A stretch of 64,000 nucleotides of DNA from Microtetraspora glauca (GTDB lineage: Bacteria; Actinomycetota; Actinomycetes; Streptosporangiales; Streptosporangiaceae). This document shows positions 3,987 through 28,180 of the stretch, piece by piece. The notes under the pieces were generated by a model. The model ran no database searches. It saw only the letters and a program-made list of their open reading frames with translations, and was not told the origin of the DNA. The stretch spans positions 1 through 64,000 of the forward strand of contig BBYL01000023.1 in assembly GCA_001570385.1 (NCBI GenBank). The letters are read 5' to 3'. Both the position numbers and the translations under genes were made by a program. The stretch's first letter is position 1, and every line of letters starts with the position of its first letter.

Positions 3987-4496
3987 GTGGACACGAACCT
4001 CCTGCGCGAGGTGCTGGCCCGATGGGCGAGTGGCGTGGTGGTGGTCGCCACCATGACCGACTCGGGCAGGCGGCACGGCATGACGGCCAGCTCGTTCAGC
4101 GCTGTCGCGCTCGACCCACCCTTGATCTCGATCTGTCTCACGACGACGAGCACCACTCAGCGATTGATCGAGCAGAGCGACATCTTCACGGTGAGCATCC
4201 TGGGTCATGACCACGAGCCCATCGGGCGGCGGTTCGCGGGCATGGACAAGTCGGGAACCACGGATCGCTTCGGTCAGGAGCGGTGGGACACCGCCCAGAC
4301 CGGCGCCCCGGTCCTCGCGGACGCGGTCGGCTGGCTGGACTGCCGGGTGGCCGCCAGGCACGAGGCCGGCGACCACACGATCATCCTCGGTACGGTGCAG
4401 GCCGCGGCCACACCGCGCTCGGCCGAGCCACTCATCTACCACGCCCGCACGTTCTGCAAGCTCCGCAACGCGATGATGCAGGGGGTAATCCAATGA
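3987..4496 (+). CDS. Flavin reductase-like FMN-binding protein (two-component monooxygenase partner)
   Basis: 169-residue protein of the flavin reductase/HpaC family. Typical features are the early RWASGVVVVATM segment, the TASSFSAVALDPPLIS flavin-binding block and a C-terminal RTFCKL segment. It would use NAD(P)H to supply reduced flavin to an oxygenase; the immediate downstream gene is such a candidate and overlaps it by ATGA. The GTG at 3987 is chosen because homology begins there. The ribosome binding site is weak (GGCGG). First gene of the 3987-9805 operon. Confidence 0.85.
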   Translation: MDTNLLREVLARWASGVVVVATMTDSGRRHGMTASSFSAVALDPPLISICLTTTSTTQRLIEQSDIFTVSILGHDHEPIGRRFAGMDKSGTTDRFGQERWDTAQTGAPVLADAVGWLDCRVAARHEAGDHTIILGTVQAAATPRSAEPLIYHARTFCKLRNAMMQGVIQ

Positions 4497-5764: not shown

Positions 5765-5796
5765 TCGGGAACATCGAGTCCAATAGTGGAGCATTC

Positions 5797-16333: not shown

Positions 16334-16354
16334 CTCATCCTCCAACCACAGTGT

Positions 16355-16380
16355 GTTTCCCATAAGGAAACATTGTTTTG
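16355..16380. promoter_or_regulatory. Regulon operator upstream of the LLM monooxygenase
   Basis: GTTTCC (16355-16360), five bases, GGAAAC (16366-16371), then the remainder of GGAAACATTGTTTTG (to 16380). The 13-bp core GAAACATTGTTTT has one mismatch against GAAACA-N-TGTTTC. Confidence 0.75.
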
Positions 16381-16409: not shown

Positions 16410-16691
16410 TCACGAATCGTGGTCGACGACGGCGCGAGCGGCGAGCCGCGGGCGGAGCCAGGCGGCCACCTCGAGGTGGGCCGGGTGCTCCTGGTAACCG
16501 GTCAGCTCTTCGAGGGACTCGTGCCGCGTGATCAGGCACAGGTCGTAGGAGACCGGAGACCCGACCGTGTCGAGCCCGACGACGAGATCGCGGATCTGCT
16601 CCACCCTGCCCCTCAGCCCTTGGAGCAGCTCCGCGGCCTTCGGCGCGTCCTCCCGATCCGTGAACCTCATCAGCACCACGTGGGTCAGCAT
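16410..16691 (-). CDS. Dabb (stress-responsive A/B barrel) domain protein
   Basis: 93-residue protein with the Dabb fold: starts MLTHVVLMRF and contains the RDLVVGLDTVGS and YDLCLITRHESLEELTGY segments. A strong AGGAGG lies about seven bases before the ATG at 16691, which shortens the 99-residue open frame. Dabb dimers include cyclases and heme- or polyketide-handling proteins as well as proteins of unknown role. It sits behind the perfect operator at 16741, so it belongs to the regulon. The function is not assigned. Confidence 0.8.
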   Translation of the reverse strand: MLTHVVLMRFTDREDAPKAAELLQGLRGRVEQIRDLVVGLDTVGSPVSYDLCLITRHESLEELTGYQEHPAHLEVAAWLRPRLAARAVVDHDS

Positions 16692-16739
16692 GATTTTCCT
16701 CCTGGACATTTCCTCCGGTTCCGCGAGATCCTACGGCTT

Positions 16740-16754
16740 GGAAACAGTGTTTCT
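16740..16754. promoter_or_regulatory. Regulon operator, perfect palindrome between Dabb and nitrilase genes
   Basis: GGAAACAGTGTTTCT; bases 16741-16753 form the perfect palindrome GAAACA-G-TGTTTC. It lies in the divergent promoter region and could control both genes. On the downstream side GTTTCT, CTAGA, TGTAAC echoes the N5-spaced half-site pattern. Confidence 0.8.
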
Positions 16755-16780: not shown

Positions 16781-18412
16781 ATGGTGCGTGTCGCGGCGGC
16801 GCAACTTGAGACGGGTCAGGACGTGGCGGCCAACCTTGCCGCCTGCCTCCGCGTGATCGACTCGGCCGCGGCCCAGGGAGCCGAGGTGATCGTGCTGCCC
16901 GAGTTCTGCAACCACCTGTCCTGGTACGAGGACCGCGCGCACGCGCGACGGCTGGCCTGCCGGCACGGGGACCCGTTTCTCTCCGCCGTCTCCGAGCGGG
17001 CCGCCAGGCACCGCGCGTACGTCAAGATCGGTGTCACCCTGGCGAGGCGGGACGGACGCACCACAGGCGCCTCACTGCTCTACGGCCCCGACGGAACCCT
17101 CCTCGGCGAGGCCGACAAGCAGACCCTGATGGGCGCGGAGAACGACCACCTCGACCCCGGAACGACCGTCGGCCCGGTGATCGCGACCGAGATCGGCCGG
17201 CTCGGCATGTACGCCTGCATGGAGGGCGTGATCAGCGAGGTCACCCGGGGGCTGGTGCTGCGCGGCGCGCAGGTGCTGCTCAACAGCCTGAACTCGTTCG
17301 CCGTGGACGAGGCGAGCCTGCACATCCCCGTCCGGGCCGCCGAGAACAAGGTCTGGGTGGTCGCCGCCAACAAGGTCGGGCCGCTGGTGCCCGCGGACAC
17401 GCTGGGCTCGGTCAGCGCCGGGCTCGGCGTCCCGCCGGAATGGTTGCACGGCGCGGGCGAGAGCCAGATCGTCGCTCCGGACGGCACCATCGTGGCCCGA
17501 GCGCCACGGACCGGCGAGGCGGTGGTCGTCGCCGACATCGACGTGGCCCTCGCCGACGACAAGCTCCGCCCCGACGGCACGGACATCCTGGCCGCTCGCC
17601 GCCCGGCCCTCTACGGGCCGATCGCCGCCGAGCCCCGGGGCCGCAGGGCTTCCGCCGGAGCCGAGCGCCTGATCGTGTCCGCGGTGCGGCCCGGCGACGA
17701 GCCGGGTACCGCCGCGGATCTCATCCGGCAGGCGGCCGAAGGCGGAGCGGAACTGGTCGTGCTCCCCGAACTCTGCGGGGTGACGGCGGCGGACGCGGCA
17801 CGAGCGGTCCGCGGGACGGCGGCGCACGTGGTGCTCACCGAGATCCGGGACGGGGCCCACGAGGGGCTGCTGGTCTCCGGTGAGGGGGTCGTGGGGCGGC
17901 AGCGGGCCCTCCACGCCTCCGCACGGCACGCCGGGCGGGTCACCTCGCTGGGCGATGGCCTGGAGATCTTCGAACTGCCCTGGGGACGGCTCGCCGTCGT
18001 CGTCGGCGACGACGCGGTGTACCCCGAGACGTTCAGGCTGGCGGCGCTGGCCGACGCGGACGTCGTCGCGGTTCCGTTCACCCCGTCCGAACCCTGGGAG
18101 CTGGAGTACGGCCTGCTGGAACGGGCCGCGGAGAACCGGCTCAACGTCGTCGCCGCCGGCCATGACGGACCGGCGGGCCTGGCCGGGGCGATCCTGGCGG
18201 CGCCGCGCGACTTCACCCTCTGGACCGCCTGGGAGGGCCCGTTCAGCGGCCGCATCAGCCACCCGCTCGTCACGCCGGTCAAGAACGGCGACCGCGTGGT
18301 TCGCGCCGACGTCTACCCGGCGCAGGCCGTCAACCGGCACGTCTCACGCCTGACCGACCTCGTGGACGGCAGGCCCTGGCGGCTGGTCGACGCACTCGTC
18401 ACCGGCCATTGA
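16781..18412 (+). CDS. Tandem two-domain nitrilase-superfamily amidohydrolase
   Basis: 543 residues containing two carbon-nitrogen hydrolase domains. Domain 1 (about 1-275) has a complete triad: E41 in VLPEFC, K113 in ADKQTL, C146 in MYACMEG. Domain 2 (about 290-543) keeps a Glu in VLPELC, but its Lys position reads GRQRAL and its Cys position VVGDDAVYPE, so it looks catalytically dead. Family members (about 270-330 aa) hydrolyse nitriles, amides or carbamoyl groups. The ATG at 16781 follows GAGGAG. In this regulon it might open a cyclic imide or remove an amide nitrogen (inference). Confidence 0.82.
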   Translation: MVRVAAAQLETGQDVAANLAACLRVIDSAAAQGAEVIVLPEFCNHLSWYEDRAHARRLACRHGDPFLSAVSERAARHRAYVKIGVTLARRDGRTTGASLLYGPDGTLLGEADKQTLMGAENDHLDPGTTVGPVIATEIGRLGMYACMEGVISEVTRGLVLRGAQVLLNSLNSFAVDEASLHIPVRAAENKVWVVAANKVGPLVPADTLGSVSAGLGVPPEWLHGAGESQIVAPDGTIVARAPRTGEAVVVADIDVALADDKLRPDGTDILAARRPALYGPIAAEPRGRRASAGAERLIVSAVRPGDEPGTAADLIRQAAEGGAELVVLPELCGVTAADAARAVRGTAAHVVLTEIRDGAHEGLLVSGEGVVGRQRALHASARHAGRVTSLGDGLEIFELPWGRLAVVVGDDAVYPETFRLAALADADVVAVPFTPSEPWELEYGLLERAAENRLNVVAAGHDGPAGLAGAILAAPRDFTLWTAWEGPFSGRISHPLVTPVKNGDRVVRADVYPAQAVNRHVSRLTDLVDGRPWRLVDALVTGH

Positions 18413-18438
18413 CATAGCCACGCCAAGAGTTTCACCAT
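18409..18438 (+). promoter_or_regulatory. Predicted promoter of the chlorophyll-catabolism-like operon
   Basis: TTGACA (18409-18414), overlapping the nitrilase stop codon, an 18-base spacer and CACCAT (18433-18438). The -35 is perfect, the -10 moderate. The operator overlaps the -10, fitting repression. Confidence 0.6.
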
Positions 18439-18454
18439 GGGAAACAATGTTTCG
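18429..18454. promoter_or_regulatory. Regulon operator overlapping the operon promoter
   Basis: GTTTCA (18429-18434), five bases, then GGAAACAATGTTTCG (18440-18454). The core 18441-18453 is a perfect GAAACA-A-TGTTTC palindrome. An ATG at 18437 falls within it and is therefore unlikely to be a start codon. Confidence 0.8.
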
Positions 18455-18469
18455 AACAGGAGTCCCGTT

Positions 18470-19288
18470 TTGAAAGAGACGCTCCAGAACGTGGAAGACA
18501 TGGTCGACCAGTCGCCGATCGTCGACGTCACCGAGGCCTTCCAGCGGTGGCAGGAGTTGCTCGGCGAGCTGACAGCGAAGATCGAGGCCCGGTTCGAACT
18601 GAGGCGCGACCCGTCCACCGAGGCTCTCGAGTCGTACGGGTCCTACCCTGAGGGGGCGGGCGGCAGGCTCGCCGCCTTCAGCGGTCCGGAGATCGACTGG
18701 ATGGTTCACTCCTGGATCGGGAACCCGAAGGCGAGCTTCGTCAACCTGCACCTGACGGTCTGGCTCGGCCCGCACATCAGGGTCCCGCACCTGGGCATCG
18801 CGCTGCTGCTCTGGCCCGAAGGGTGGTTCTACGCCGACGCCATCCCACGCGGCGACCTCATCGGCGACGGGGACTACTACGACCGCTACTACACCCCCAA
18901 CGAGGCGGACTGGCTGGAGCACAGGGAGAAGCACGAGGACTTCGTCTGGTTCACCAGCCCGACCGCGTTCATCCGGGCCAGCCTCTCCCCGACGGCGTAC
19001 TGCTACTCCTTCCCGGCCTCCCAAGCCAACATCGAGGTCGTACGCGACGTGCTGCACCGGCGGGTCGACCAGTGGCTGGCCTGGGTGGACGAGGCCGAGC
19101 CCGTCCCGTTCGAGGAGCGGGCCGCGCTGGCCGAGCGCGACCTCGCCGTCCGCAGGAACATCGCCGAACGCGACCCGGCGAACGTGATGGGCGTCAAGCT
19201 GTTCGGCCAGGAGACCACCGACATGCTGGTGCGCTCCCTGTGGGGCGGCGACCGGGTGCTCCCCCGGCCCTCGGGACCGGGTGAATGA
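18470..19288 (+). CDS. Red chlorophyll catabolite reductase (RCCR)-like protein, copy 1
   Basis: 272 residues from a TTG start preceded by AGGAG at seven bases (18458-18462). The longer frame from ATG 18437 runs through the operator. Segments in RCCR order are IDWMVHSWI (about 75), an IPRGDLIGDGDYYDRYY block (about 125-141; plant RCCR has LLPRKDL followed by Y residues), SPTAFIRASLSPTA (about 163-176) and a C-terminal VRDVLHRRVDQWLAW. RCCR belongs to the ferredoxin-dependent bilin reductase fold and reduces the open-chain product made by PaO. The similarity was judged by eye; the family is likely, the exact substrate unknown. First gene of a seven-gene operon. Confidence 0.65.
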   Translation: MKETLQNVEDMVDQSPIVDVTEAFQRWQELLGELTAKIEARFELRRDPSTEALESYGSYPEGAGGRLAAFSGPEIDWMVHSWIGNPKASFVNLHLTVWLGPHIRVPHLGIALLLWPEGWFYADAIPRGDLIGDGDYYDRYYTPNEADWLEHREKHEDFVWFTSPTAFIRASLSPTAYCYSFPASQANIEVVRDVLHRRVDQWLAWVDEAEPVPFEERAALAERDLAVRRNIAERDPANVMGVKLFGQETTDMLVRSLWGGDRVLPRPSGPGE

Positions 19289-20252
19289 CCCTATGAGCCT
19301 GGTCAGGTCACTGTGGTGGGCCGCGCGGACCGGGGGACGACCTCCCTTCGACACCGCGCATCTCAAGGTCTACTATCCGGCGACGGCCCACGGTGACGAC
19401 GCGGAGCGGCTGGCCGGAGTGTTCCCGCCCGCCCCGGACGGCATGCCGTACCCCGTCGTGCTGTTCCTCTCGGGCATCAACGTCGGGCAGGACGCCTACC
19501 GGCGGCTCGCCTGCCTGCTCGCGGCCGGGGGCTTCGCCGTGGTGACCTTCGACCAGGTGGCGGAACTGTTCGGCGGCCAGTACGGCCTGACGCCGGGAGT
19601 CGACGTCGACGCGGCCACACCGCGGACGTACGGCACACGCCCCACCTGCCCGGCCATCCCCGCGCTGCTGGACGCGCTGGCCCGGCTCAACGAGACGGGA
19701 CCGCTCAAAGGCGCGCTGGACCTGGACCGCGTCGCGCTCGGCGGCCACTCCGCCGGCGGCACGGTCGCTCTGCAGTCCGCGCGCTTCTTCCCCCAGGTGA
19801 AGGCGGTGTTCGCCTGGGGCACGCACACGATGGCGGCCACCATGCTCGGCTGGCCGGCGGGCACGGTGTTGCCCGCCCAGGTGACCTGCCCCGTACTGCT
19901 CGGCGCCGGAGGCAACGACGGCGTCGTCGACGGCAGCGCCGACCGGTACGGCGAGGACCCCGCGACCCGGCGGGATCCGGTGACCAGGACCTTCGAGGAG
20001 GCCCTGCCCGAGTCGCCGGAAAGCGGGCGGGGCGGTGACCATCTGCTGGCCGTCTACGAAGGCGCCAACCATTTCGCGATCGCCGACCCGGTGGACCCGA
20101 CCGTGGCGCGCGCGTTCCTGGACGGCCCCGCCTCTCGCGATGTCCTCCCTCAGTTCGGGCATCTCGTCATGGTCTTCCTGGGGGCCCACCTGTCTCAGGA
20201 CCACGGGGCCCGAGCCGCACTCGACGGATTCGACGGACTACGTCGACGTTAG
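19281..20252 (+). CDS. Alpha/beta hydrolase, chlorophyllase/pheophytinase-type
   Basis: 323-residue hydrolase. Visible are the strand-plus-oxyanion region PVVLFLSGINVGQDAY (about 58-73), the nucleophile elbow GGHSAGG with S157 (chlorophyllases have GHSRGG), a likely acid D213 in AGGNDG and H264 in GANHF. Chlorophyllases or pheophytinases remove phytol by ester hydrolysis, the expected step before a PaO-type oxygenase, which is encoded next. The start is GTG 19281 (overlapping the upstream stop) or ATG 19293. No signal peptide is seen, so it is probably cytoplasmic. Hydrolase family certain; substrate inferred from neighbours. Confidence 0.75.
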   Translation: MNDPMSLVRSLWWAARTGGRPPFDTAHLKVYYPATAHGDDAERLAGVFPPAPDGMPYPVVLFLSGINVGQDAYRRLACLLAAGGFAVVTFDQVAELFGGQYGLTPGVDVDAATPRTYGTRPTCPAIPALLDALARLNETGPLKGALDLDRVALGGHSAGGTVALQSARFFPQVKAVFAWGTHTMAATMLGWPAGTVLPAQVTCPVLLGAGGNDGVVDGSADRYGEDPATRRDPVTRTFEEALPESPESGRGGDHLLAVYEGANHFAIADPVDPTVARAFLDGPASRDVLPQFGHLVMVFLGAHLSQDHGARAALDGFDGLRRR

Positions 20253-20262
20253 GAGCGAGATC

Positions 20263-21408
20263 ATGCTCAAGAATTTCTGGTACGCGCTGGAGTTCGCCGA
20301 CAGGGTCGGGCGCAAGCCCATGAGAGTACGCTGCCTGGACCAGGACTTCGTGCTCTACCGCACGCGCAAGGGCGACATCGCCTGCCTGTCGGACCTGTGC
20401 GTCCACCGCGGCGGCGCGCTGTCCATGGGCACCCTCAAGGGCGACACGGTCGTGTGTCCCTACCACGGCTGGGAGTACGAACCCGGCGGCGCGTGCGTGC
20501 GGATCCCCGCCAACCCGGAAGGACGGGGCATCCCCAGGAAGGCCCGGGTCGACTCCTACCCGACGACCGTGAGGTACGGCTTGGTGTGGGCGTTCCTCGG
20601 CGACCTGTCCGAGGAGGAACGGCCGCCCATCCCGCACATCCCGGAGTACGACAATCCGGCCTTCCGCATGGTCCGGCTCGAGATGGAGGTCAACGCCAAC
20701 TACGAGCGGGCCTTCGAGAACGCGGTGGACGCCGCGCACACCCCGTTCGTCCACGGCACCGTGTTCGGCAATCCGGACAAGCCGGAGATCCCCGACTACA
20801 CCATCCGGCAGGAGGACTGGTTCGCCGAGGCCGACGTCCAGCTCAGCCCGCCGATGCCCAAGGGCATCTGGGGAATGCTGGCCAGGCGTAGGAAGCGGCC
20901 CGAGCACGTGACCGTGACCAACGGCTGGTACCTGCCCAACGTGATCAAGCTGCACGTCCGGCTCCCGTTCGGCGAACTGATCATGTGGGACTTCAACATC
21001 CCGCTCTCGCAGGACCGCACGCTCATCAAGATCTTGGCCTTCCGCACCTTCTTCCCCAGAGCCTGGGCCGACAAGAACGCGATCAAGCGGACCATGCGGA
21101 TCCTCAAGCAGGACATACCGATCGTGGAGTCGCAGCGCCCGGAACTCCTGCCCTTCGACCTGTCCGACGAGTTGCACATCCGCAGCGACGCGCTCCAGGT
21201 CGCCTACCGCCGCCGCCGCGCCGAGCTCATCCAGAAGGGCTGGTGGGTCGGCGACGACGACACGGTGGTCAGCGAGCACCCGCACCGCCGGGCCACCGTC
21301 ATCCCCTCCCCCGCGCGCCGCGACAACCCCGAACTCGCCCGCGCGTGGGTGCACAAGGCCAGGTCCGAGCGCGGCCGCTTGTCCGCGGACGCCGACGGCC
21401 CCCTATAG
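20263..21408 (+). CDS. Rieske non-heme iron oxygenase, pheophorbide a oxygenase/VanA type
   Basis: 381-residue oxygenase. The Rieske 2Fe-2S ligands are C46-H48 (CVH) and C65-H68 (CPYH). The mononuclear iron site shows ENAVDAAHTPFVHG with H159 and H164, and bridging D156. Homologues include pheophorbide a oxygenase, which opens the chlorin ring, and demethylases such as VanA. I see no C-terminal CxxC pair or membrane helix as in plant PaO, so it is probably soluble. AGGAG (20251-20255) is seven bases before the ATG. No dedicated ferredoxin or reductase gene lies nearby. PaO-like function is inferred from the RCCR, hydrolase and NOL-like neighbours. Confidence 0.75.
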   Translation: MLKNFWYALEFADRVGRKPMRVRCLDQDFVLYRTRKGDIACLSDLCVHRGGALSMGTLKGDTVVCPYHGWEYEPGGACVRIPANPEGRGIPRKARVDSYPTTVRYGLVWAFLGDLSEEERPPIPHIPEYDNPAFRMVRLEMEVNANYERAFENAVDAAHTPFVHGTVFGNPDKPEIPDYTIRQEDWFAEADVQLSPPMPKGIWGMLARRRKRPEHVTVTNGWYLPNVIKLHVRLPFGELIMWDFNIPLSQDRTLIKILAFRTFFPRAWADKNAIKRTMRILKQDIPIVESQRPELLPFDLSDELHIRSDALQVAYRRRRAELIQKGWWVGDDDTVVSEHPHRRATVIPSPARRDNPELARAWVHKARSERGRLSADADGPL

Positions 21409-21428
21409 AAACCGGAAGAAGTCGCGTG

Positions 21429-22154
21429 ATGAGCCTCCCCGCCGCTCTCAGCGAGCGGACCCTGTCGGCGCTCAGCGAGGCCCTCGGCCTTGAGACCGTC
21501 GACGACATCCCCCTGACCAGCCCGATGTCGCCCGATCCCGTCGGCCGCCTCCTCGTCCTGCGCCGGCCCCCGGCCGCGAAGGGGGCGGAGCAGCCGGTGG
21601 ACCGGGTGGTCGACAAGGTGGTGGCGGTCAGCCTGGTCGTGCCGATGATCGGGCTGGACAGTCACATGATCTTCGCGTTCACCGTGCCTGACTCGGCGGT
21701 GCCGCACTTCACCCTCGACTCGGTGGCCTCGCCGGACTACCACGCCATGCACCTCGACCTGATCCCGCGGGGCGAACTGGCGGTCAACCTCGCCTACCTG
21801 GACGCGTGCTACCTGGAGCTGACCCCCCTGCTGGAGGACGCCGCGAAGATCGAGGGCGTCTCGCCAGCGGCGATCGGGCCCCGGCAGCGAGCCATGATGT
21901 CGCCGTGGATGGTCGTGTGCAGGGCGACCCCCGAAGCGTTCACCGCGCTGGACGGCACCGTCGACGCGTACCTCCGGCACTGGCTCAGCCTGGTCGCCGG
22001 GGGCGTGCCCGCACTTGAGGGCGACCTGGCCGCCCGTGACCGCGCCGGCCGGGAGAACCTCTTCTCCCCCGAGGTCGACCCGGTCTGGCACCAGGTCACC
22101 CGGCTCATCGGAGCCGAACAGTCCGAACGCGTGAGAGGAGAACTGGTCCGATGA
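21429..22154 (+). CDS. RCCR-like protein, copy 2
   Basis: 241-residue protein with the same core blocks as the gene at 18470: IFAFTVPDSAVPHFTLDS, HLDLIPRGELAVNLAYLDACY (the PRxDL-type motif with trailing Tyr), a Pro/Trp-rich segment before the last helix, and DAYLRHWLSL. It is diverged from copy 1, so two successive or alternative reductions are possible. GGAAGAAG lies seven bases before ATG 21429; a GTG at 21426 is also possible. Bilin-reductase-like fold inferred by eye; confidence is lower than for copy 1 because no long identical stretch is visible. Confidence 0.55.
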   Translation: MSLPAALSERTLSALSEALGLETVDDIPLTSPMSPDPVGRLLVLRRPPAAKGAEQPVDRVVDKVVAVSLVVPMIGLDSHMIFAFTVPDSAVPHFTLDSVASPDYHAMHLDLIPRGELAVNLAYLDACYLELTPLLEDAAKIEGVSPAAIGPRQRAMMSPWMVVCRATPEAFTALDGTVDAYLRHWLSLVAGGVPALEGDLAARDRAGRENLFSPEVDPVWHQVTRLIGAEQSERVRGELVR

Positions 22155-23083
22155 GCGAACCGAGCGAGTGGCAGCGGCGCATCGCGGGTGAGTGGGTCGG
22201 GCGGCCGTCGCTGTTCGACGCGACGGGCACCTGGCAGGGCTTCGAGGACATCCGGCGATCGTCGGTGTTCGAGGACGGCGTCACGACCTACTACATGGAC
22301 GGCGGCCTCACCGGTGGCGGGCCCATGGCGGGGCGTTTCAAGCTGGGCGCGCCCTTCGCCTTCGGGGTGACCGACTCCGACCTCGACCGCGTCTACACCG
22401 GCCCCGACTTCTTCGGCACCGGCCAGCCGTACGGCTCCTTCGTGGACGCCCACTACTACGGACCCGGCTGGCAGACCGACCTCAACACCTGGAACCAGGT
22501 GCTGCCCGACGGCGAGACCCAGGTCTACTCGTCGGCGCTCTACCAGGGCCCGGCCATGATCGGCATCTTCAACGGCGTCTACACGCGCAACCCGGAGAAG
22601 GTCGAGGCCAGGCTCGCCCAGGAGACGCGGTGCGGGGCCGTGCCGTACATCCTGCCGACCAAGGACACCGCGGTGTACGGCGGGACGTGCGAGCTGTGGG
22701 GCGCGGACCAGAAGCCGCGCGGGAACGTGCAGATCACGATCGAGCTCGAACCGGTGAACCTGCTGACCACCCGGCACCGCGTCACCTGGAGCGGATCGCT
22801 CAGCCGCTCCTATGAGACGGTCGTGCGCCGCGACGGCTTCCGCTCCCTCTACGAGGGGCCGGACGCCTGGGGCAACGCGATCGCGTACGGCAGGGCGAAC
22901 TACGGCACCCTCCACTTCACCGACGTGTGGAAGCTCAGGTCCAGGGAGTTCATGATCGACGCCGAGCCGGGCATGGGCGCCGGTTCCACGCTCGCCGTGG
23001 TCTACGAGTTGTTCGAGGGCGGCGGGCTGTCCGCCGTCGCGCACGGTGTGCTGGAGCGCCGCACCGGTGGAGTCGAGGCTTGA
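22151..23083 (+). CDS. Unknown beta-rich protein, possibly lipocalin-like
   Basis: 310 residues, not recognised. It is rich in Gly, Tyr, Thr and alternating hydrophobic residues, with many short predicted strands (IAGEWVGRPSLFD, TTYYMDGGL, HYYGPGWQTD, TQVYSSALYQGP, IGIFNGVYTR) and a second half of similar character, suggesting one large or two smaller beta barrels. No signal peptide or membrane segment. Start by ATGA overlap within the operon, so it is co-translated with the pathway genes. Candidate roles are pigment binding/carrier or a missing step such as magnesium removal; both are guesses from context. Confidence 0.6.
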   Translation: MSEPSEWQRRIAGEWVGRPSLFDATGTWQGFEDIRRSSVFEDGVTTYYMDGGLTGGGPMAGRFKLGAPFAFGVTDSDLDRVYTGPDFFGTGQPYGSFVDAHYYGPGWQTDLNTWNQVLPDGETQVYSSALYQGPAMIGIFNGVYTRNPEKVEARLAQETRCGAVPYILPTKDTAVYGGTCELWGADQKPRGNVQITIELEPVNLLTTRHRVTWSGSLSRSYETVVRRDGFRSLYEGPDAWGNAIAYGRANYGTLHFTDVWKLRSREFMIDAEPGMGAGSTLAVVYELFEGGGLSAVAHGVLERRTGGVEA

Positions 23084-23844
23084 CCGTCGTCGTCGTGACC
23101 GGCGGCACCCGGGGCATCGGCCTCGGCATGGCGCGGGCGCTGCTGGAGCGCGGCCACTCGGTGGCCGTCTGCGGCCGCACGGAGGAGTCGGTGGAACGCG
23201 CCGGCCCGGACCTTCGTGACGCCCTCGCCATGGTCGCGGACGTGGCCGACCGGGAGCAGGTCCGGGCGCTCTGGGACGCCGCGGCCGAGCGGTACGGCCG
23301 GATCGACGTCTGGATCAACAACGCGGGGATCTCCCACGCCAGGAGACCGATGTGGGAGCTGACGGAGGGCGCCGCCCGCTCGGTCGTGGACGTCAACCTG
23401 CTCGGCGTGCTCAACGGCTCGGCGGTGGCGCTGGCCGGCATGGCCGAGCAGGGCTCCGGACACCTGTGGAACATGGAGGGCCTCGGCAGCGACGGCCGCT
23501 CGGTACCCGGGCTGGCGATCTACGGCGCGACCAAGCGCGCGGTGACCTACCTGACCCGGGCCCTGGCCAAGGAGGTGCCGCCCGGGGTGTCGGCCGGGCT
23601 GCTCAGCCCCGGGATGGTCGTCACCGATCTGCTGACCCACGACTACGACCCCGAGGCGCTGGAGAAGGCCAAGAAGATCTTCAACATCCTGGCCGACCGG
23701 GTCGAGACCGTCGCCCCCTGGCTGGCCGAGCAGGCCGTGTCGCAGACCCGCAACGGCGCCCACGTCCGATGGTTGACCACGACCAGGACGATGGCCCGCT
23801 TCGCCACCGCGCCCTTCCGCAGGCGCGACCTCTTCACGGCCTGA
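23080..23844 (+). CDS. Short-chain dehydrogenase, chlorophyll(ide) b reductase (NOL/NYC1)-like
   Basis: 254-residue SDR starting at TTG 23080, which overlaps the upstream stop (TTGA) with GGAG at seven bases. Cofactor motif TGGTRGIG (about 7-14), IDVWINNAG (75-83), Ser in GLGSDGR and YGATK (Y148, K152). Beyond the generic SDR core it carries features I associate with plant NOL/NYC1: NMEGLGSDGR, LSPGMVVTDLL, the IFNILADRVETVA segment and a C-terminal VRWLT. Those enzymes reduce the C7 formyl of chlorophyll b. The substrate could be another formyl-tetrapyrrole. This is the strongest single match to chlorophyll metabolism in the window. Confidence 0.75.
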   Translation: MTVVVVTGGTRGIGLGMARALLERGHSVAVCGRTEESVERAGPDLRDALAMVADVADREQVRALWDAAAERYGRIDVWINNAGISHARRPMWELTEGAARSVVDVNLLGVLNGSAVALAGMAEQGSGHLWNMEGLGSDGRSVPGLAIYGATKRAVTYLTRALAKEVPPGVSAGLLSPGMVVTDLLTHDYDPEALEKAKKIFNILADRVETVAPWLAEQAVSQTRNGAHVRWLTTTRTMARFATAPFRRRDLFTA

Positions 23845-23881
23845 GCCGTACTCCGTAGCCCCCACACCGAAGGAGATTTCG

Positions 23882-24625
23882 ATGACCGACGCGCTCGGCT
23901 GGCGCCGGAAGTTCGGCGTGATCGCACCCTCCACGAACACGATCGTGGAGCCGGACTTCTACCGCATGGCGGTCCCCGGCGTGACCGCGCACTTCAGCCG
24001 CATCCACATCCGCGACCAGAACATGGACGGCGACGCGGGGATGGAGCGGCTGCTCGAGCAGATCCGCGAGGAGATCGGCGCGGCCTGCGAGCGGGTGCTG
24101 ACCTGCGAGCCGGACTACATGGTGATGGGCATGTCCGCCGAGACGTTCTGGGGCGGGGTCGAGGGGAACCGCCAGTTCGTCAAGCAGATCCACGACATCA
24201 CCGGGCTGCGGGTCGCCACGGGCGCGGAGGCGTGCGAGCGGGCCCTGAAGCTGTACGGCGCGCGCCGCATCGGCGTCGTCACGCCGTACCAGCCGGTGGG
24301 TGACGCGAACGTGGTCCGGTTCTTCGGCGAGATCGGCTTCGAGGTGACGGCGATCAACGGCCTGCGCTGTCCGACCGCCGTGTCGATCGCCCACGTCACC
24401 GAGGACGAGCTGAGAAAGGCCCTGCTCAGCGTCGACGGGCCGGACGTCGACGCGCTCGTCCAGTGCGGGACGAACCTGTCGATGGTCGGGCTCGCCGACG
24501 AGGCCGAGCGCTGGCTCGGCAAGCCGGTCATCGCGATCAACGCCGCCACCTGGTGGATGGCCCTGCGCGACAACGGCGTCGAGGACAAGGTCCACGGCGC
24601 CGGATCCCTGCTGCGCGACCACTGA
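23882..24625 (+). CDS. Arylmalonate decarboxylase/maleate isomerase-family (Asp/Glu racemase superfamily) protein
   Basis: 247-residue protein with the family start GVIAPSTNTIVEPDF and a conserved C195 in VQCGTNLS. The first cysteine of maleate isomerases is absent: that position reads MGMSAETFWGG (residues 82-92), closer to the MGTSLSFYRG-type loop of arylmalonate decarboxylase. One Cys suggests decarboxylation or one-base chemistry rather than classical two-Cys maleate isomerisation. AAGGAG precedes the ATG. It is separated by 37 bases from the SDR and probably the last gene of the operon. Confidence 0.78.
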   Translation: MTDALGWRRKFGVIAPSTNTIVEPDFYRMAVPGVTAHFSRIHIRDQNMDGDAGMERLLEQIREEIGAACERVLTCEPDYMVMGMSAETFWGGVEGNRQFVKQIHDITGLRVATGAEACERALKLYGARRIGVVTPYQPVGDANVVRFFGEIGFEVTAINGLRCPTAVSIAHVTEDELRKALLSVDGPDVDALVQCGTNLSMVGLADEAERWLGKPVIAINAATWWMALRDNGVEDKVHGAGSLLRDH

Positions 24626-24628
24626 GAA

Positions 24629-24659
24629 GCGGCGGTCAGAACCGGGCGACGACCGCCGC
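24629..24659. terminator. Hairpin between convergent genes, possible bidirectional terminator
   Basis: GCGGCGGTC (24629-24637) pairs with GACCGCCGC (24651-24659) around a 13-base loop. It sits between the stop codons of convergent genes and overlaps the last codons of the minus-strand amidase. Confidence 0.55.
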
Positions 24660-25265
24660 CTCATCCCAGACCTCGCCGTACTTGGCCTGGATGTCGAACA
24701 GGCTCGCCTCGTGCGGGCGGTCGTCGCGGTCGCCGACGGCCTGCCGTACCACGACGGGCACGAACCCGTGTTGCACGGAGTCGACGGCGGTGGCGCGGAC
24801 GCAGCCGCTGGTCGAGACTCCGGCGATGACCAGGGTGTCGGCCCGCGACGCGGTCAGGGTGGAGGCCAGGGTGGTGCCGAAGAACGAGCTGGCGTACTGC
24901 TTGACGATCACCAGTTCGCCGTCCCGGGGCGCCACCTCGGGCATCAACTCGCCGAGCGGACCGTCACCGACCAGATGCCGCAGCGGCGCCACCTTCCGGA
25001 AGAACAGCCCGCCGTCGACCCCACCGGGGCCGAACGCGACCCGGGTGTGGATGACCGGGACGCCCGCCGTACGCGCCGCGGACAGGACACGGGCCGCCGA
25101 CTCCAGGCACGCGCGCGAGCCCATGTACAGCTCGGCTCCCGGCTCGAAGTAGGCCCGCATCAGGTCGATGAGGAGGAGCACCGGGCGGTCCCCGAAGGGC
25201 AGGGAGCGCCCGTACACCTCGTCATGGGGCCTGACCACGTCATGAGGTTCATGAGGCAGGGGCAT
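24636..25265 (-). CDS. Isochorismatase-family amidohydrolase (N-carbamoylsarcosine/maleamate amidase type)
   Basis: 209-residue cysteine hydrolase with the triad D34 (LLIDLMRAYF), K122 (IVKQYASSFF) and C155 (GVSTSGCVRAT). The sequence around the Asp and Cys resembles N-carbamoylsarcosine amidase and maleamate amidohydrolase more than true isochorismatases. It hydrolyses small amides, releasing ammonia. A strong GGAAGGAG precedes the ATG. It is last in a three-gene minus operon (GntR, CoA-transferase, amidase). Next to an AMDase/maleate-isomerase-family enzyme it recalls maleamate degradation (known for nicotinate and maleimide pathways). Confidence 0.82.
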   Translation of the reverse strand: MPLPHEPHDVVRPHDEVYGRSLPFGDRPVLLLIDLMRAYFEPGAELYMGSRACLESAARVLSAARTAGVPVIHTRVAFGPGGVDGGLFFRKVAPLRHLVGDGPLGELMPEVAPRDGELVIVKQYASSFFGTTLASTLTASRADTLVIAGVSTSGCVRATAVDSVQHGFVPVVVRQAVGDRDDRPHEASLFDIQAKYGEVWDEAAVVARF

Positions 25266-25295: not shown

Positions 25296-26492
25296 TCAGA
25301 TGACGCCGTCGCCCGACAGGCGGGCGAGGTCCGCGTCGGTGAGTCCGAGCAGGCCCCGATAGACCTCCTCGTTGTGCTGGCCCAGCGCGGGTCCCACGCT
25401 GCGCACGCTGCCGGGCGTGGCCGACAGCTTGGGCACGACGTTCTGCATCGCCAGCTCACCGAAGTCGGGGTGCGGGACGCGCACGATCGCCTCGCGGGCG
25501 GCGAAGTGCGGGTCCGCGAACATGTCCTCGGCCCGGTAGATGCGCCCGGCCGGCACGCCGCCCTCGTTGAGCCGGGCCAGCAGGTCGTCGGCGTCGATCC
25601 CGGCGGTCCAGGCGGCGATGATCTCGTCCAGCTCGGCCATGTGCTCGCCGCGCGCGCTGTGCGTCGCGTACCGGTCGTCGGCCGCGAGCTCGGGCCGGTC
25701 CATGACCTTGGCCAGCCGGGTGAAGACGCTGTCCTGGTTGGCGGCGATGAGGACGGAGTCGCCGTCCATCGTGGGATAGACGTTGCTCGGCGAGACGTTG
25801 GGCAGCACGGGCCCGGTGCGCTCGCGCTGGTAGGACGACTGCTGCCATTCGGGCAGCATCGACTCCATCATCGCCAGCACGGCCTCGTAGATCGCGGAGT
25901 CGACCACCTGCCCCTTGCCGCTGCGCGTGCGCTCGTGCAGCGCGACGAGCGTGCCCACGCACGCGTGCACGGCGGCGAGCGAGTCGCCGAGCGAGATCCC
26001 GGCACGCGACGGCGGCCGGTCCGGGTCGCCGGTGACATGGCGGATGCCGCCCATCGCCTCACCGATCGAGCCGTAGCCCGCCCGCGGCGCGTAGGGGCCG
26101 GTCTGTCCGAACCCGGTGACCCGCGTGATGATCAGCCGCGGGTTGATCGCGTGCAGCTCGTCCGGGCTCATGCCCCAGCGTTCCAGCGTGCCGGGCCGGA
26201 AGTTCTCCAGCAGGACGTCGGCCCGCTCCACCAGCCGCCGGACCAGGTCCTGGCCCGCGGAGGTGCGCAGGTCGCAGGTCACCGACTTCTTGTTGCGCGC
26301 CACGACGGGCCACCACAGCGACCTGCCGTAGGGCTTCTCCCTGCCCCACTGGCGCATGGGGTCGCCCCTTCCGGGGTCCTCGACCTTGATGACCTCCGCG
26401 CCGAAGTCGCCGAGCAGCTGGCCGCAGAACGGGCCGGCGAGCAGCTGCCCGAGCTCGATGACGCGGACGTCGCCGAGGGGGATGTCTCTCAT
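25296..26492 (-). CDS. CaiB/BaiF (family III) CoA-transferase
   Basis: 398-residue CoA-transferase with the family start VIELGQLLAGPFCGQLLGDF and catalytic D170 in ISLGDSLAAVHA. Family III enzymes move CoA from a donor such as succinyl-CoA to organic acids. ATG 26492 follows AGGAGATGGA and overlaps the GntR stop (ATGA). With a lyase of the HMG-CoA type encoded divergently, the pair resembles the CoA-activation plus retro-aldol cleavage used for branched dicarboxylates such as citramalate. Confidence 0.9.
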   Translation of the reverse strand: MRDIPLGDVRVIELGQLLAGPFCGQLLGDFGAEVIKVEDPGRGDPMRQWGREKPYGRSLWWPVVARNKKSVTCDLRTSAGQDLVRRLVERADVLLENFRPGTLERWGMSPDELHAINPRLIITRVTGFGQTGPYAPRAGYGSIGEAMGGIRHVTGDPDRPPSRAGISLGDSLAAVHACVGTLVALHERTRSGKGQVVDSAIYEAVLAMMESMLPEWQQSSYQRERTGPVLPNVSPSNVYPTMDGDSVLIAANQDSVFTRLAKVMDRPELAADDRYATHSARGEHMAELDEIIAAWTAGIDADDLLARLNEGGVPAGRIYRAEDMFADPHFAAREAIVRVPHPDFGELAMQNVVPKLSATPGSVRSVGPALGQHNEEVYRGLLGLTDADLARLSGDGVI

Positions 26493-27154
26493 TCCATCTC
26501 CTGGTGAGGGCTCGTTTCGTGGTGAAGGTTCGTTTCGTGGTGACGCGGACCCAGCAGCGACGCCCGCGCGGAGAACAGGTGGGCGCGCATGACCGCCTCC
26601 GCCCACTCCGGGTCCCCGGCCCGTACGGCCGCCGCGATCTCGATGTGGTGGTCGACGCTGCGCCGCATGGCCTCATCGTCGAAGGAGTTGTACGTGCGCA
26701 GCAGAACCGCCGAGTGGACCAGCGAGCTGATCGACTGAGCGAGCACCATGCTTCCGCCGAGCCGGACCAACGCCTGGTGGAAGTCGGCGTTCAGCCGGTA
26801 GACGGTGTCCAGGTCACGCCGCCCGGCGTGGTCCCTGATCGCGACGGCGACCTCGTGCAGGTGCGCCGCGTCCTCGGCGGTGGCGGTGACGGCCGCCTGT
26901 CTGGCGGCGAGCCCCTCGATCCTGGCCCGCAGCTCGAAGATCGTCTCCAGATCCTCGCGGGGGTACTCCACGACCCGCGCTCCCTTGTTGGCCGTGATCT
27001 CGACCAGTCCCTCGGCCTGCAGGCGCCACAGGGCCTCCCTGACCGGGGTGCGGCTGACGCCGAGCGTCTCGGCGAGATCGACCTCGCCGAGCCGGTCTCC
27101 CGGGGCGTAGTGCCCGCCGAGGATCAGGCTCCGCAAATCATCCGTCACTGTCAT
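26489..27154 (-). CDS. GntR-family regulator, FCD subfamily
   Basis: 221 residues: winged helix (about 1-70, LGVSRTPVREALWRLQAEGLV) and an all-helical FCD effector domain (about 80-205) with the metal-binding-type Asp/His set (DFHQAL, DHHIEI). The C-terminus ends in a His-rich duplicated HHETN/HHETS tail. Start 27154 follows GGAGG. It is the first gene of a three-gene operon and divergent from the lyase gene; FCD regulators usually sense the organic acid handled by their neighbours and autoregulate. Confidence 0.9.
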   Translation of the reverse strand: MTVTDDLRSLILGGHYAPGDRLGEVDLAETLGVSRTPVREALWRLQAEGLVEITANKGARVVEYPREDLETIFELRARIEGLAARQAAVTATAEDAAHLHEVAVAIRDHAGRRDLDTVYRLNADFHQALVRLGGSMVLAQSISSLVHSAVLLRTYNSFDDEAMRRSVDHHIEIAAAVRAGDPEWAEAVMRAHLFSARASLLGPRHHETNLHHETSPHQEME

Positions 27155-27229: not shown

Positions 27230-28180
27230 ATGGACATCGAGATCATCGAAGTCGGGCCGCGCGACGGGCTGCAGAACGAGCCGGTCATCGTGCCCACGGC
27301 CGCCAAGGTGGCCTACATCCGATCGCTGATCGCTGCCGGGCTGCGGCGCGTCGAGGCCGTCAGCTTCGTCCACCCGCGCCGGGTTCCGCAGATGGCCGAC
27401 GCGGAGGAGGTCATGGCCCGCGTCCCGCGTGTCCCGGGGGTCCGCTACGCGGGGCTGGTGCTGAACGAGCGCGGCCTCGACCGCGCACTGCGGGCCGGGG
27501 TGGACGAGGTCAACGCCGTTGTGGTGGCCACGGAGACCTTCTCCCAGCGCAACCAGGGCATGTGCGTGGACGACGCCGTCGCCGGGTTCGGCGTGATCGC
27601 CGTCCGCGCCCGCGAGGCGGGGCTCCGGGTGACGCTGACCGTGGCGGCCGCCTTCGGCTGCCCGTTCGAGGGCGAGGTGGCCCCGGACCTGGTCGCCGGC
27701 ATCGTACGGCGCTGTCCGGGAGCGCAGGAGATCGCGCTGGCCGACACCATCGGCGTGGGCGTCCCCGCCGACGTGCGGCGGCTGGCCGCCGCCGTCCGCG
27801 AGGTGAGCCCGCTGCCGCTGCGCTTCCACTTCCACAACACCCGCAACACCGGGTACGCGAACGCCGTGGCCGCGCTGGAGTCGGGCGCCGTCGCCCTCGA
27901 CGCCAGCGCGGGCGGCATCGGCGGGTGCCCCTTCGCCCCCGCCGCCACCGGCAACATCGCCACCGAGGATCTGGCCTACCTGCTGCACCGCTCGGAGATC
28001 GCCACCGGGGTCGATCTGGCCGGCGTACTGGCCGCCGCCGAGCTCGTCGAGGCCGCGCTGGGCACCCGGGTCCCCGCCCAGCTCGGCCGTGCGGGGATCT
28101 GGCCGGACTCCCGAGCATTGCACAACCCGGCAGCCCGTTCTACTGTACGAAACACTGTTTCCTTTTCACCCGACCAGTGA
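27230..28180 (+). CDS. HMG-CoA lyase-like (DRE-TIM metallolyase) enzyme
   Basis: 316-residue TIM-barrel lyase with GPRDGLQNE (R11, D12), the metal ligands RFHFHNTRNT (H200, H202) and the signature loop GGCPFAPAATGN with C233. It cleaves 3-hydroxy-3-alkyl acyl-CoAs, giving acetyl-CoA or a ketoacid; leucine degradation is the textbook role. Citramalyl-CoA-type substrates are handled by related enzymes, and the divergent CoA-transferase makes that attractive here. The last 21 codons contain a promoter and operator for the next gene. Confidence 0.9.
   Translation: MDIEIIEVGPRDGLQNEPVIVPTAAKVAYIRSLIAAGLRRVEAVSFVHPRRVPQMADAEEVMARVPRVPGVRYAGLVLNERGLDRALRAGVDEVNAVVVATETFSQRNQGMCVDDAVAGFGVIAVRAREAGLRVTLTVAAAFGCPFEGEVAPDLVAGIVRRCPGAQEIALADTIGVGVPADVRRLAAAVREVSPLPLRFHFHNTRNTGYANAVAALESGAVALDASAGGIGGCPFAPAATGNIATEDLAYLLHRSEIATGVDLAGVLAAAELVEAALGTRVPAQLGRAGIWPDSRALHNPAARSTVRNTVSFSPDQ
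28118..28146 (+). promoter_or_regulatory. Predicted promoter inside the 3' end of the lyase gene
   Basis: TTGCAC (28118-28123), exactly 17 bases, TACTGT (28141-28146). An operator follows two bases later, the same promoter-then-operator layout as at 3916 and 9984. Confidence 0.55.
28148..28162. promoter_or_regulatory. Regulon operator, perfect palindrome
   Basis: CGAAACACTGTTTCC; bases 28149-28161 are a perfect GAAACA-C-TGTTTC palindrome. It overlaps the coding end of the lyase gene and lies 54 bases before the hydrolase-fragment start. Confidence 0.75.

Follow-up and report, generated by a model that had tools for sequence, protein, structure and literature searches.

In plants, chlorophyll is broken down through the PaO/phyllobilin pathway (NYC1/NOL, PPH/CLH, PaO, and RCCR), and the pigment is made and broken down on a scale of 10^12 kg each year, as given in the available text of PMC7318184. 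Bacteria also encode members of such families. According to the available text of Rockwell et al. 2023 (PMC10151467), genes for pre-PcyA bilin reductases of the FDBR/RCCR superfamily form conserved clusters in heterotrophic bacteria, together with haem oxygenase, an Fe-S protein, V4R proteins, and globins, and homologues of the Mg-dechelatase SGR are described from non-photosynthetic bacteria (available text of PMC8531759, citing Obata et al. 2019). In the literature, we found no described bacterial genes or pathway for consuming chlorophyll-like pigments.

We analyzed a window of 64,000 nucleotides from Microtetraspora glauca (GCA_001570385.1, 9.27 Mb; contig BBYL01000023.1, here C23, positions 1–64,000), whose gene cluster partly resembles each of these systems. 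Like the plant pathway, it combines the RCCR family, a Rieske enzyme, a chlorophyllase-like ester hydrolase, and a short-chain dehydrogenase/reductase (SDR), but it differs in having two RCCR-fold proteins, a Rieske enzyme of the VanA_C type, an orphan lipocalin, additional oxidative and amidase/CoA-lyase genes, and the form of a bacterial operon with a conserved palindrome. Staygreen Mg-dechelatase (PF12638) was found in 0 of 10 cluster genomes, in a search run without a positive control, a further difference from plants. The SGR homologues of PMC8531759 likewise represent a chlorophyll-degradation enzyme family in non-photosynthetic bacteria, but as a single gene, as far as the available text goes, rather than a multi-gene cluster. 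With the pre-PcyA clusters the locus shares FDBR/RCCR-superfamily genes, conserved clustering, and heterotrophic hosts, whereas haem oxygenase, the Fe-S protein, V4R, and globins, as listed in the available text of PMC10151467, are all absent from its annotated recurrent neighbours, and haem oxygenase genes occur in this genome on contigs C15 and C19, away from the window. Its putative lower-pathway families resemble those of itaconate/mesaconate and cyclic-imide/lactam catabolism (RipC lyase, family III CoA-transferases, and oxoprolinase), from which its upper pathway differs.

Layout and conservation of the operon

The sequence-only reading had described an operon of six genes, and all six are present on the + strand at 18437–23844, tightly packed, with neighbours overlapping or separated by no more than about 20 bases. 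Because a nitrilase gene (nit) upstream and the amd gene downstream recur with the cluster on the same strand, the operon is longer than first described, with eight genes over 16781–24625. No ferredoxin gene was noticed within it.

To follow the cluster in other genomes, we used the best 80 of 95 loci fetched by similarity to RCCR1 alone, to which all counts out of 80 below refer; co-occurrence figures are therefore conditional on RCCR1, which is present in 80/80 by construction. All eight core genes occur together in 71 of these 80 loci, confirming the operon, with two genes more than first claimed, and its recurrence in other actinomycetes. PF06405 itself is rare, being present in 8 of 200 genomes of the same family and 3 of 396 of the phylum (this genome included in both counts), and in none of the three same-genus genomes listed. 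The cluster of these soil actinomycetes is conserved and jointly regulated, and is built around two RCCR relatives.

Predicted proteins of the operon

RCCR1 (18470..19288, +) is closest by sequence to red chlorophyll catabolite reductase, in line with its initial description as RCCR-like: it matches PF06405 (RCC_reductase) at E 4e-15, its 56.1 bits well clear of the 24.9-bit cut-off, and its profile finds solved RCCR (3agb) at E 6.6e-15 and PebB at 7.1e-8. Homologues begin at the residue matching TTG at 18470, with ATG at 18437 as an alternative start. In RCCR, we take Glu154 and Asp291 to be the catalytic residues. With the chain numbering of Glu154 checked, the aligned residue in RCCR1 is Ala in 78 of 79 sequences and Thr in one, and Asp aligns with Asp291, within an RDPAN motif, in 79/79. 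Because it lacks Glu154, RCCR1 is best termed a homologue, with RCC reductase activity only putative.

RCCR2 (21429..22154, +; 76/80) reaches only 14.0 bits (E 0.03) for RCC_reductase in the Pfam scan of the window protein, and across its family RCC_reductase is matched at E ≤ 1 in 43 of 51 members and Fe_bilin_red in 15 of 51. Its predicted model (pLDDT 95.6) matches Arabidopsis RCCR in Foldseek at E 2.4e-12 (TM 0.71–0.74), and the 45 chains found at E ≤ 0.001 comprise RCCR, PebB, PcyA, HY2, PebA, PebS, and two chains of a Ycf2-FtsHi complex. Judged by this model, RCCR2 belongs to the RCCR/bilin-reductase fold. The suggestion of a second RCCR-like protein therefore stands at the level of the fold. 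As to RCCR or bilin reductase, the comparisons point different ways: the structural Z scores are tied (RCCR 22.9, PebB 22.8, PebA 22.7, HY2 22.2), the best solved match of the sequence profile is the phytochromobilin synthase HY2 (E 0.002 and 0.01), and the family-wide Pfam scan favours RCC_reductase. D97, which aligns with RCCR Glu154, is kept in 79/79 sequences, as is D217, which aligns two residues past Asp291 and matches it only via an E-x-D pattern recognized by eye.

The oxygenase (20263..21408, +; 77/80) is a Rieske non-haem iron enzyme of the VanA_C type (Rieske 5.8e-21, VanA_C 4.3e-24) that keeps the CxH/CPYH (CxH...CxxH) Rieske site and the DxxHxxxxH iron site in 77–78 of 78 sequences. 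It had been labelled PaO-type, an assignment not supported by the search for the PaO C-terminal domain: PF08417 is matched at E ≤ 1 in 0 of 14 members, VanA_C in 14 of 14, and PF08417 has no match in this genome. The best solved sequence matches are SxtDIOX/SxtT and methylxanthine demethylases, which act on small molecules. The alpha/beta hydrolase (hyd, 19293..20252, +, or from GTG at 19281; 75/80), with a GHSAGG motif, had been called chlorophyllase/pheophytinase-type. Family scans lend this weak support: at E ≤ 1e-3, Chlorophyllase is matched in 12 of 20 members, but DLH in 16 of 20, with PETase and others comparable, and the window protein scores 23.9–24.0 bits for Chlorophyllase (PF07224), just under the cut-off of 26, matching otherwise generic families. 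The SDR (23080..23844, +; PF00106 2e-41; 76/80) carries conserved WNMEGLGS, YGATK, and LSPGMVVTDLL motifs. An approximate NOL/NYC1 fragment, used as query, matches 77/77 SDR members (window SDR, E 5.4e-15); of 11 further SDR loci in the genome, two gave no match and the rest reached 0.002 at best. This offers only a lead that the SDR may be a relative of NOL/NYC1.

The orphan protein (unk, 22151..23083, +; 76/80) has no Pfam match in the window; none of its 47 members does better than E 0.024, with unrelated families, and DUF3598 is not among the families matched by any of them at E ≤ 1. Its predicted model (pLDDT 92.3) aligns with 2o62 (Z 19.9, rmsd 3.8, 247 residues) and 5yvf (Z 19.5, rmsd 3.9, 265 residues), with Foldseek TM of only 0.55–0.60 of the query, and the N-terminal half of the model also matches the bilin lyase CpeS (Z 12.2). 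We predict a double lipocalin of the DUF3598/BFA1 fold. The nit gene (16781..18412, +; 76/80) encodes a two-domain nitrilase-type amidase (PF00795 7.6e-44, two stretches). In its first domain C146 and K113 are kept in 75 of 77 sequences and E41 in 68 of 77, the remainder being gaps; E41-K113-C146 is presumably the catalytic triad. The amd product (23882..24625, +; 74/80) is EutA/arylmalonate-decarboxylase-like (PF17645 2e-20; TIGR02990 4.6e-21, below its cut-off), has Cys195 in 75 of 93 copies, and is 85–92% identical across seven same-family loci (L011–L017).

Shared palindromes and a candidate regulator

Allowing up to two mismatches, GGAAACN3GTTTCC precedes nit in 67 of 77 loci and has 0 matches before hyd, the Rieske gene, RCCR2, unk, SDR, and amd. 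Palindromes also lie upstream of the IclR gene in 28 of 30 and of the flavin reductase gene (FlvR) in 28 of 31, these two sharing one divergent promoter region, with 0–2 matches before inner operon genes overall. Since related palindromes precede nit and the IclR/flavin-reductase genes and hardly ever inner genes, these genes appear to form one regulon, supporting the shared regulator proposed by the sequence-only reading. The IclR-type protein (3066..3848, −; PF01614 1.6e-45; 33/80) is probably its regulator.

In the window, the putative operator TGGAAACAGTGTTTC (16739..16753, +) precedes nit and is the sole exact TGGAAACN3GTTTC in the genome. A second palindrome, TGTTTCCCATAAGGAAACA (16354..16372, no strand assigned), precedes a luciferase-like monooxygenase gene and is the sole exact GTTTCCN5GGAAAC. 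One-mismatch sites number 23 for the N3 palindrome against 1 for its control, and only 13 for the N5 palindrome against 5 for the reversed control. Such sites mark a second locus of this genome with a Chlorophyllase-family hydrolase (L133 2545–3468; PF07224 30.5 against a cut-off of 26, PETase higher at 41.9 bits; N-terminus resembling a signal peptide on visual inspection) and an MFS transporter that shares 53% identity with a cluster-borne one; another locus with a one-mismatch site encodes a DUF3598_N protein. Importers had been reported around the operon: the ABC importer of the window lies outside the conserved cluster (SBP in 2/80), but the second locus does place a transporter, of the MFS type, next to one-mismatch sites.

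FlvR (3987..4496, +; PF01613 1.6e-40; 32/80) is followed on the + strand by an acyl-CoA-dehydrogenase-fold protein, possibly a two-component monooxygenase (4493..5764; PF08028 1.3e-13; 53/80), aldehyde dehydrogenase 1 (5761..7233; PF00171 2.2e-107; 68/80), an FAD_binding_3 monooxygenase (7230..8366; PF01494 5.8e-57; 64/80), and aldehyde dehydrogenase 2 (8333..9805, start uncertain; PF00171 1.3e-122; 68/80). A small Dabb-family protein (16413..16709, −; PF07876 1.6e-16; 48/80) is divergent to nit.

Proposed catabolism and alternative readings

On balance, we favour a catabolic regulon that lets soil actinomycetes feed on a chlorin, with a chlorophyll derivative (pheophorbide, for example) as the likeliest candidate. 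Two tetrapyrrole-reductase-fold proteins beside an oxygenase in one operon follow the central scheme of chlorophyll breakdown in plants. The initial match to the plant pathway is partly supported: it holds for both RCCRs as members of the fold, but not for the Rieske enzyme without a PaO domain, and it is weak for the hydrolase, just under its cut-off. The part of the proposed refuting check that was run, on the 18470 and 21429 products, did not refute it. From the families present and how they co-occur, the folds predicted for their proteins, and the palindromes shared across the regulon, we infer the substrate, the reactions, and their order as follows. An exported chlorophyllase-family esterase would take off the ester tail and a transporter would import the pigment. 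The Rieske oxygenase would open the macrocycle, in the role of PaO but from a different subfamily, and the SDR may reduce a formyl group. RCCR1 and RCCR2 would reduce the open-chain tetrapyrrole, which the double-lipocalin protein may carry. Flavin monooxygenases and the two aldehyde dehydrogenases could then cut it to monopyrroles and oxidize the aldehydes, amidases of the nitrilase, isochorismatase, and oxoprolinase types (the last in remote clusters) could open lactam/imide rings and release ammonia, and the amd enzyme, CoA-transferase, and CitE/HMG-CoA-lyase-type enzymes may channel branched dicarboxylates to central metabolism. The fullest version, with extracellular dephytylation, import, non-PaO Rieske opening, RCCR1/RCCR2 reduction on the lipocalin, and every pyrrole ring mineralized to CoA thioesters, so that plants would share RCCR (perhaps NOL/NYC1) with soil bacteria that use them for feeding, is possible, with the balance tilting somewhat against it.

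It is unlikely that the regulon instead degrades linear tetrapyrroles not derived from chlorophyll (haem-derived biliverdin/bilirubin or phycobilins), with the Rieske enzyme hydroxylating or cleaving a bilin. The HY2 match of the RCCR2 profile, the 15 of 51 members matching Fe_bilin_red, the equally good structural fit to PebB, PebA, HY2, and RCCR, and three haem oxygenase genes in this genome suit such a substrate, but those genes lie on other contigs than the window, 3 of 10 cluster genomes have no haem oxygenase match, and chlorophyllase-like ester hydrolases in or beside the regulon would have no obvious role on free propionates. Less probable still is recruitment of the RCCR-fold proteins to a non-tetrapyrrole (a lactam, pyrrole alkaloid, or other N-heterocycle) in an ordinary catabolic pathway. 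The missing Glu in RCCR1 and the small-molecule relatives of the Rieske enzyme would agree with this, and isochorismatase, EutA/Amdase-like enzyme, CoA-transferase, and lyases also suit pyridine, pyrimidine, or cyclic imide breakdown; yet two RCCR-fold proteins with a lipocalin of cyanobacterial/plastid fold and chlorophyllase-family hydrolases are unexpected for a small heterocycle, and RCCR2 retains two acidic positions in 79/79 sequences. A biosynthetic role, making or tailoring a tetrapyrrole-like natural product, is very improbable: actinomycetes produce many natural products, and a family whose sole scanned member is neocarzinostatin-like lies near 24 of 83 compared sequences, but the annotated subset of recurrent neighbour families includes no assembly-line or peptide-synthetase gene, and the aldehyde dehydrogenases, amidases, CoA-transferases, lyases, transporters, and IclR regulator are catabolic in character.

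For many actinomycete strains, identified by name, the cluster points to specific genes, along with a candidate regulator site and testable reactions. If active on chlorins, it would provide genes by which soil microbes mineralize tetrapyrroles, as well as new enzymes for ring opening and bilin reduction, and would bear on whether plant chlorophyll-breakdown enzymes have bacterial relatives that serve in feeding.

The putative lower-pathway gene families fit alkyl-maleimide or lactam fragments, which the available text of PMC7318184 reports from oxidation of chlorophyll and haem; in the leaf samples described there, hematinic acid was detected and maleimides were not. In the window, these families comprise an isochorismatase-type amidohydrolase (24639..25265, −; PF00857 2.6e-35; 3/80), a family III CoA-transferase like mesaconate/succinate-glutarate transferases (25299..26606, −, ATG start probably 26492; PF02515 7e-129, NF052585 and NF041294 below cut-off; 5/80, also in L018 and L019), and a hydroxymethylglutaryl-CoA lyase-type enzyme (27230..28180, +; NF004283 309.8 bits, cut-off 246). 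Such genes adjoin few loci (CitE 18/80, HMGL 8/80, CoA-transferase 5/80). Among the proteins scanned, CoA-transferase, CitE, and PrpB-like proteins miss NCBIfam equivalog cut-offs; for the HMG-CoA lyase, a subfamily cut-off is exceeded. Hydantoinase A/B, cyclase, PrpD, CitE, and CoA-transferase genes lie near remote clusters, three of which carry extra CoA-transferase and CitE-type lyase genes, and a CitE of one locus (L063) has the itaconate lyase RipC as its closest match.

Composition and conservation of the operon

All six genes that a sequence-only reading had proposed as a chlorophyll breakdown operon are present in the claimed order on the + strand, with overlaps or gaps of no more than about 20 bases, within an eight-gene operon (16781-24625) that also includes a nitrilase-type amidase gene (nit) and amd, which encodes a EutA/arylmalonate-decarboxylase-like enzyme. 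The operon is real and conserved, and is probably regulated as one unit. An RCCR1 alignment scan found 95 loci encoding a relative, and the best 80 of these were compared (only L020-L099 were counted; L012, L014, L015, and L016 are apparently the same places as L024, L029, L089, and L022). Host taxa among these 80 include Nonomuraea, Nocardia, Actinomadura, Streptosporangium, Catellatospora, Actinoplanes, Dactylosporangium, Streptomyces, and others, together with metagenome-assembled genomes of one actinomycetote, one Anaerolineales, and one Oligoflexaceae member. No RCCR1 relative matched in plasmids, and none of 22 pattern matches in viral contigs was a relative.

Genes in the comparison loci were predicted by a simple caller that missed the window's hydrolase; presence was therefore counted by tblastn at 1e-12, taking one best segment per locus, which in single cases could be a paralogue of the hydrolase or the SDR. 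Among the 80 loci, we detected the nitrilase in 76, RCCR1 in 80 (by construction), the hydrolase in 75, the Rieske protein in 77, RCCR2, the orphan protein, and the SDR in 76 each, and amd in 74. All eight genes co-occur in 71 loci; the other nine are incomplete. Among these, L076 is a contig of 5.7 kb truncated at both ends, L098 breaks off within the cluster and shows no nitrilase in the 10 kb upstream, and L099 is cut upstream and also lacks the Rieske and RCCR2 genes in 7.6 kb downstream. The amd gene is missing from L097, the orphan from L024, and the hydrolase from L046 and L049; of the eight genes, L095 keeps only RCCR1 and the nitrilase, and L020 only RCCR1. This last locus, from Nonomuraea corallina, encodes an RCCR1 90% identical to the window's, a flavin reductase, an ABC importer, and LLM, and looks like a decayed copy of the window's arrangement.

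Among the annotated families, recurring upstream neighbours are a flavin reductase (FlvR, 32 of 80 loci), an ACAD-fold protein (53), an ALDH (68), a FAD monooxygenase (64), and a second ALDH (68). The ABC importer does not belong to the conserved cluster: just 2 of the 80 loci have the SBP. In L022 (1198-2436), a flavin reductase is followed by an HMGL-like domain within one protein, unlike the separate flavin reductase of the window. A small neocarzinostatin-family protein gene lies in L050 (6105-6641, the sole member scanned), and its sequence family was found near 24 of 83 compared sequences. In the window, + strand ORFs of 737, 598, 227, and 513 aa at 14318, 24711, 26504, and 27184 were dropped as they look like shadows of other genes; the likely genes replacing them are the end of the ABC operon (+), LLM (-), isochorismatase (-), CoA-transferase (-), GntR (-), and HMG-CoA lyase (+).

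Putative operators and further loci

Palindromes with GGAAAC/GTTTC half-sites lie at 16354-16372, 16739-16753, 18429-18453, and 28149-28163 of the window. The sites at 18429-18453 overlap a possible ATG start of RCCR1, and that at 28149-28163 lies where the HMG-CoA-lyase-type gene ends. We searched for two forms, GGAAACN3GTTTCC (N3, up to 2 mismatches) and GTTTCCN5GGAAAC (N5), in a region reaching from 200 nt before each gene to 40 nt inside it. Of 77 loci, 67 have the N3 form before nit and 49 have the N5 form there; the N5 form also precedes the IclR regulator gene (28/30) and FlvR (28/31), which share one divergent region. One shuffle per region, run for the N5 form only, gave 0/77, 0/30, and 1/31 for nit, IclR, and FlvR, respectively. 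Each form occurs before RCCR1 in 10 of 79 cases and before CitE in 8 of 15. Upstream of the hydrolase, Rieske, RCCR2, orphan, SDR, and amd genes (73-93 genes each), the N3 form was found 0 times and the N5 form 0-2 times, a pattern that also speaks for their lying inside a single transcript. Sigma-70 and terminator scans gave nothing useful.

Exact forms occur once each in the 9.27 Mb genome, both in the window (N5 at 16355 and TGGAAACN3GTTTC at 16739). Allowing one mismatch, the N5 form has 13 places in the M. glauca genome versus 5 for a reversed control, and the N3 form matches 10 times on one strand and 13 times on the other, versus 0 and 1 for the control. Three such places lie within 3.5 kb on contig C18 (L133, 1589-5695). 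The genes around them encode a hydrolase whose N-terminus looks by eye like a signal peptide (30.5 bits for Chlorophyllase, cut-off 26; 41.9 for PETase), a membrane protein akin to the cluster's Mem214 family (49%), and an MFS transporter that shares 53% identity with one from a cluster. A further membrane protein encoded in this locus also has relatives among the cluster neighbours. On contig C25 (L135, 261-8999), a one-mismatch site lies between a nitrilase-type and a glyoxalase-type gene. Downstream of the former are genes for a DUF3598_N protein (26.7 bits against a cut-off of 22) and an ALDH; this gene set may belong to the regulon as well or may reflect chance.

Protein families of the operon

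Residues 39-267 of RCCR1 match Pfam RCC_reductase (E 4e-15), and among solved sequences it matches, at E ≤ 1, just two kinds: Arabidopsis RCCR (8.7e-9 to 1.3e-8) and, more weakly, an algal bilin reductase (1.3e-5). RCCR1 was rightly read as an RCCR homologue. RCCR2 alone scores below the Pfam cut-off; across its family, RCC_reductase matches 43 of 51 members at E ≤ 1 (best 3.4e-6) and Fe_bilin_red 15 of 51 (best 1e-4), and a profile-profile comparison matches RCCR2 to RCCR1 (97.3%, E 2.3e-11). The nine best Foldseek matches of its predicted structure (pLDDT 95.6) are to Arabidopsis RCCR, followed by PebB, PcyA, HY2, and PebA. Judged from this model, RCCR2 is a member of the RCCR/bilin-reductase superfamily, in line with its earlier description as a second RCCR-like protein at the level of the fold. 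It is not assignable to RCCR proper because its VIA-align Z values are tied among the matches listed (RCCR 22.9, PebB 22.8, PebA 22.7, and HY2 22.2).

The printed Arabidopsis RCCR chains carry Glu at 154 and Asp at 291, which we take to be the catalytic residues. RCCR1 has Ala at the Glu154 position in 78 of 79 sequences and Asp at the Asp291 position in all 79. RCCR2 has Asp at the Glu154 position (79/79) and an invariant Asp217, which is two residues past Asp291 in the alignment and was matched to it by an E-x-D pattern seen by eye. The two proteins may divide the work between them or may form a heterodimer.

The Rieske protein, described earlier as a PaO-type oxygenase, belongs to another family: members match VanA_C in 14 of 14 cases and PaO in none of 14. 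Its iron sites are kept in 77-78 of 78 sequences. In one genome that carries the cluster, the PaO domain (PF08417) is matched at another place (L102, 28.5 bits, just over the cut-off of 27). For the operon hydrolase, the chlorophyllase-type reading is weak. An approximate NOL/NYC1 fragment used as query matches 77 of 77 SDR family members (window SDR 5.4e-15) versus a best value of 0.002 among 11 other SDR loci of M. glauca (the others at least 0.086, with two giving no match). The SDR Tyr and Lys are kept in 76 of 77 (one gap). In Nonomuraea gerenzanensis, a 66% identical SDR gene stands alone (L100, 8950-9693), with no other cluster gene found in the 18.6 kb stretch. Subsets of the length-filtered members were aligned, each set beside the window's sequence (A3, 46 of 68, L047 left out; A4, 50 of 65; A6, 19 of 71; A5, the SDR, 23 of 65 plus L100; A7, 11 of 71 plus L018 and L019).

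The orphan protein has no Pfam match: among 47 family members none scored better than E 0.024, and all hits were to unrelated families. For most of its length, its model (pLDDT 92.3) can be superposed on two structures, cyanobacterial DUF3598 (2o62, Z 19.9) and BFA1, a plastid factor (Z 19.5), with Foldseek TM values of 0.55-0.60 of the query; among the structures listed, OssO, a spirocyclase (14.2), nitrobindin (13.9), and CpeS, a bilin lyase (12.2), match a single domain. Nitrilase catalytic residues are kept (Cys and Lys 75/77, Glu 68/77, the rest gaps). Maleate isomerase was rejected as a name for amd, which keeps one cysteine (75/93 copies) and lacks the first one, presumably present in maleate isomerases; it is therefore called only EutA/Amdase-like. 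Across 93 copies in 76 sequences, residue 195 is Cys in 75 and Val in 18. Some sequences have two copies, and those with Val195 could be a non-catalytic partner.

Substrate and proposed pathway

We weighed chlorophyll against another tetrapyrrole as the cluster's substrate. Ester hydrolases with chlorophyllase similarity and an SDR that may be a NOL/NYC1 relative, given the fragment match, point to chlorophyll. The lack of a PaO speaks against it, as does a search, run without a positive control, that found Staygreen (SGR, PF12638) in 0 of 10 cluster genomes. Haem oxygenase is not strictly needed, since 3 of 10 cluster genomes have no match, which favours chlorophyll; against it, the M. glauca genome has three haem oxygenases, on other contigs. 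Word searches of the open PMC literature, in some cases covering the top 10 to 15 of 40 to 3,176 papers, listed no description of a bacterial operon of such composition. RCCR-related sequences were also used for phylogeny in PMC13193486.

If chlorophyll is the substrate, the plant order of events would be kept in outline, with ring opening by a Rieske enzyme of the VanA_C type rather than by PaO. From gene families, the pathway appears to continue to mineralisation. Oxoprolinase-type and amidase genes would act on lactams or imides, and CoA-transferase, CitE, HMG-CoA lyase, and a PrpB-like lyase could then handle branched dicarboxylates. According to PMC7318184, oxidation of chlorophyll and haem is reported to yield maleimides and hematinic acid; in the leaf samples of that study hematinic acid was found and maleimides were not. 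The HMG-CoA lyase scores 309.8 bits against a cut-off of 246; the PrpB-like lyase (L030) is below cut-off, as is the CitE of L063, which is closest to RipC. Three distant clusters (L018, L019, and L097; RCCR1 44-54% identical) retain the genes for both RCCR proteins, the Rieske protein, the orphan, and the nitrilase, and carry CoA-transferase and CitE; L018 and L097 add hydantoinase B and cyclase genes, with hydantoinase A in L018 and a PrpD-type gene in L097.
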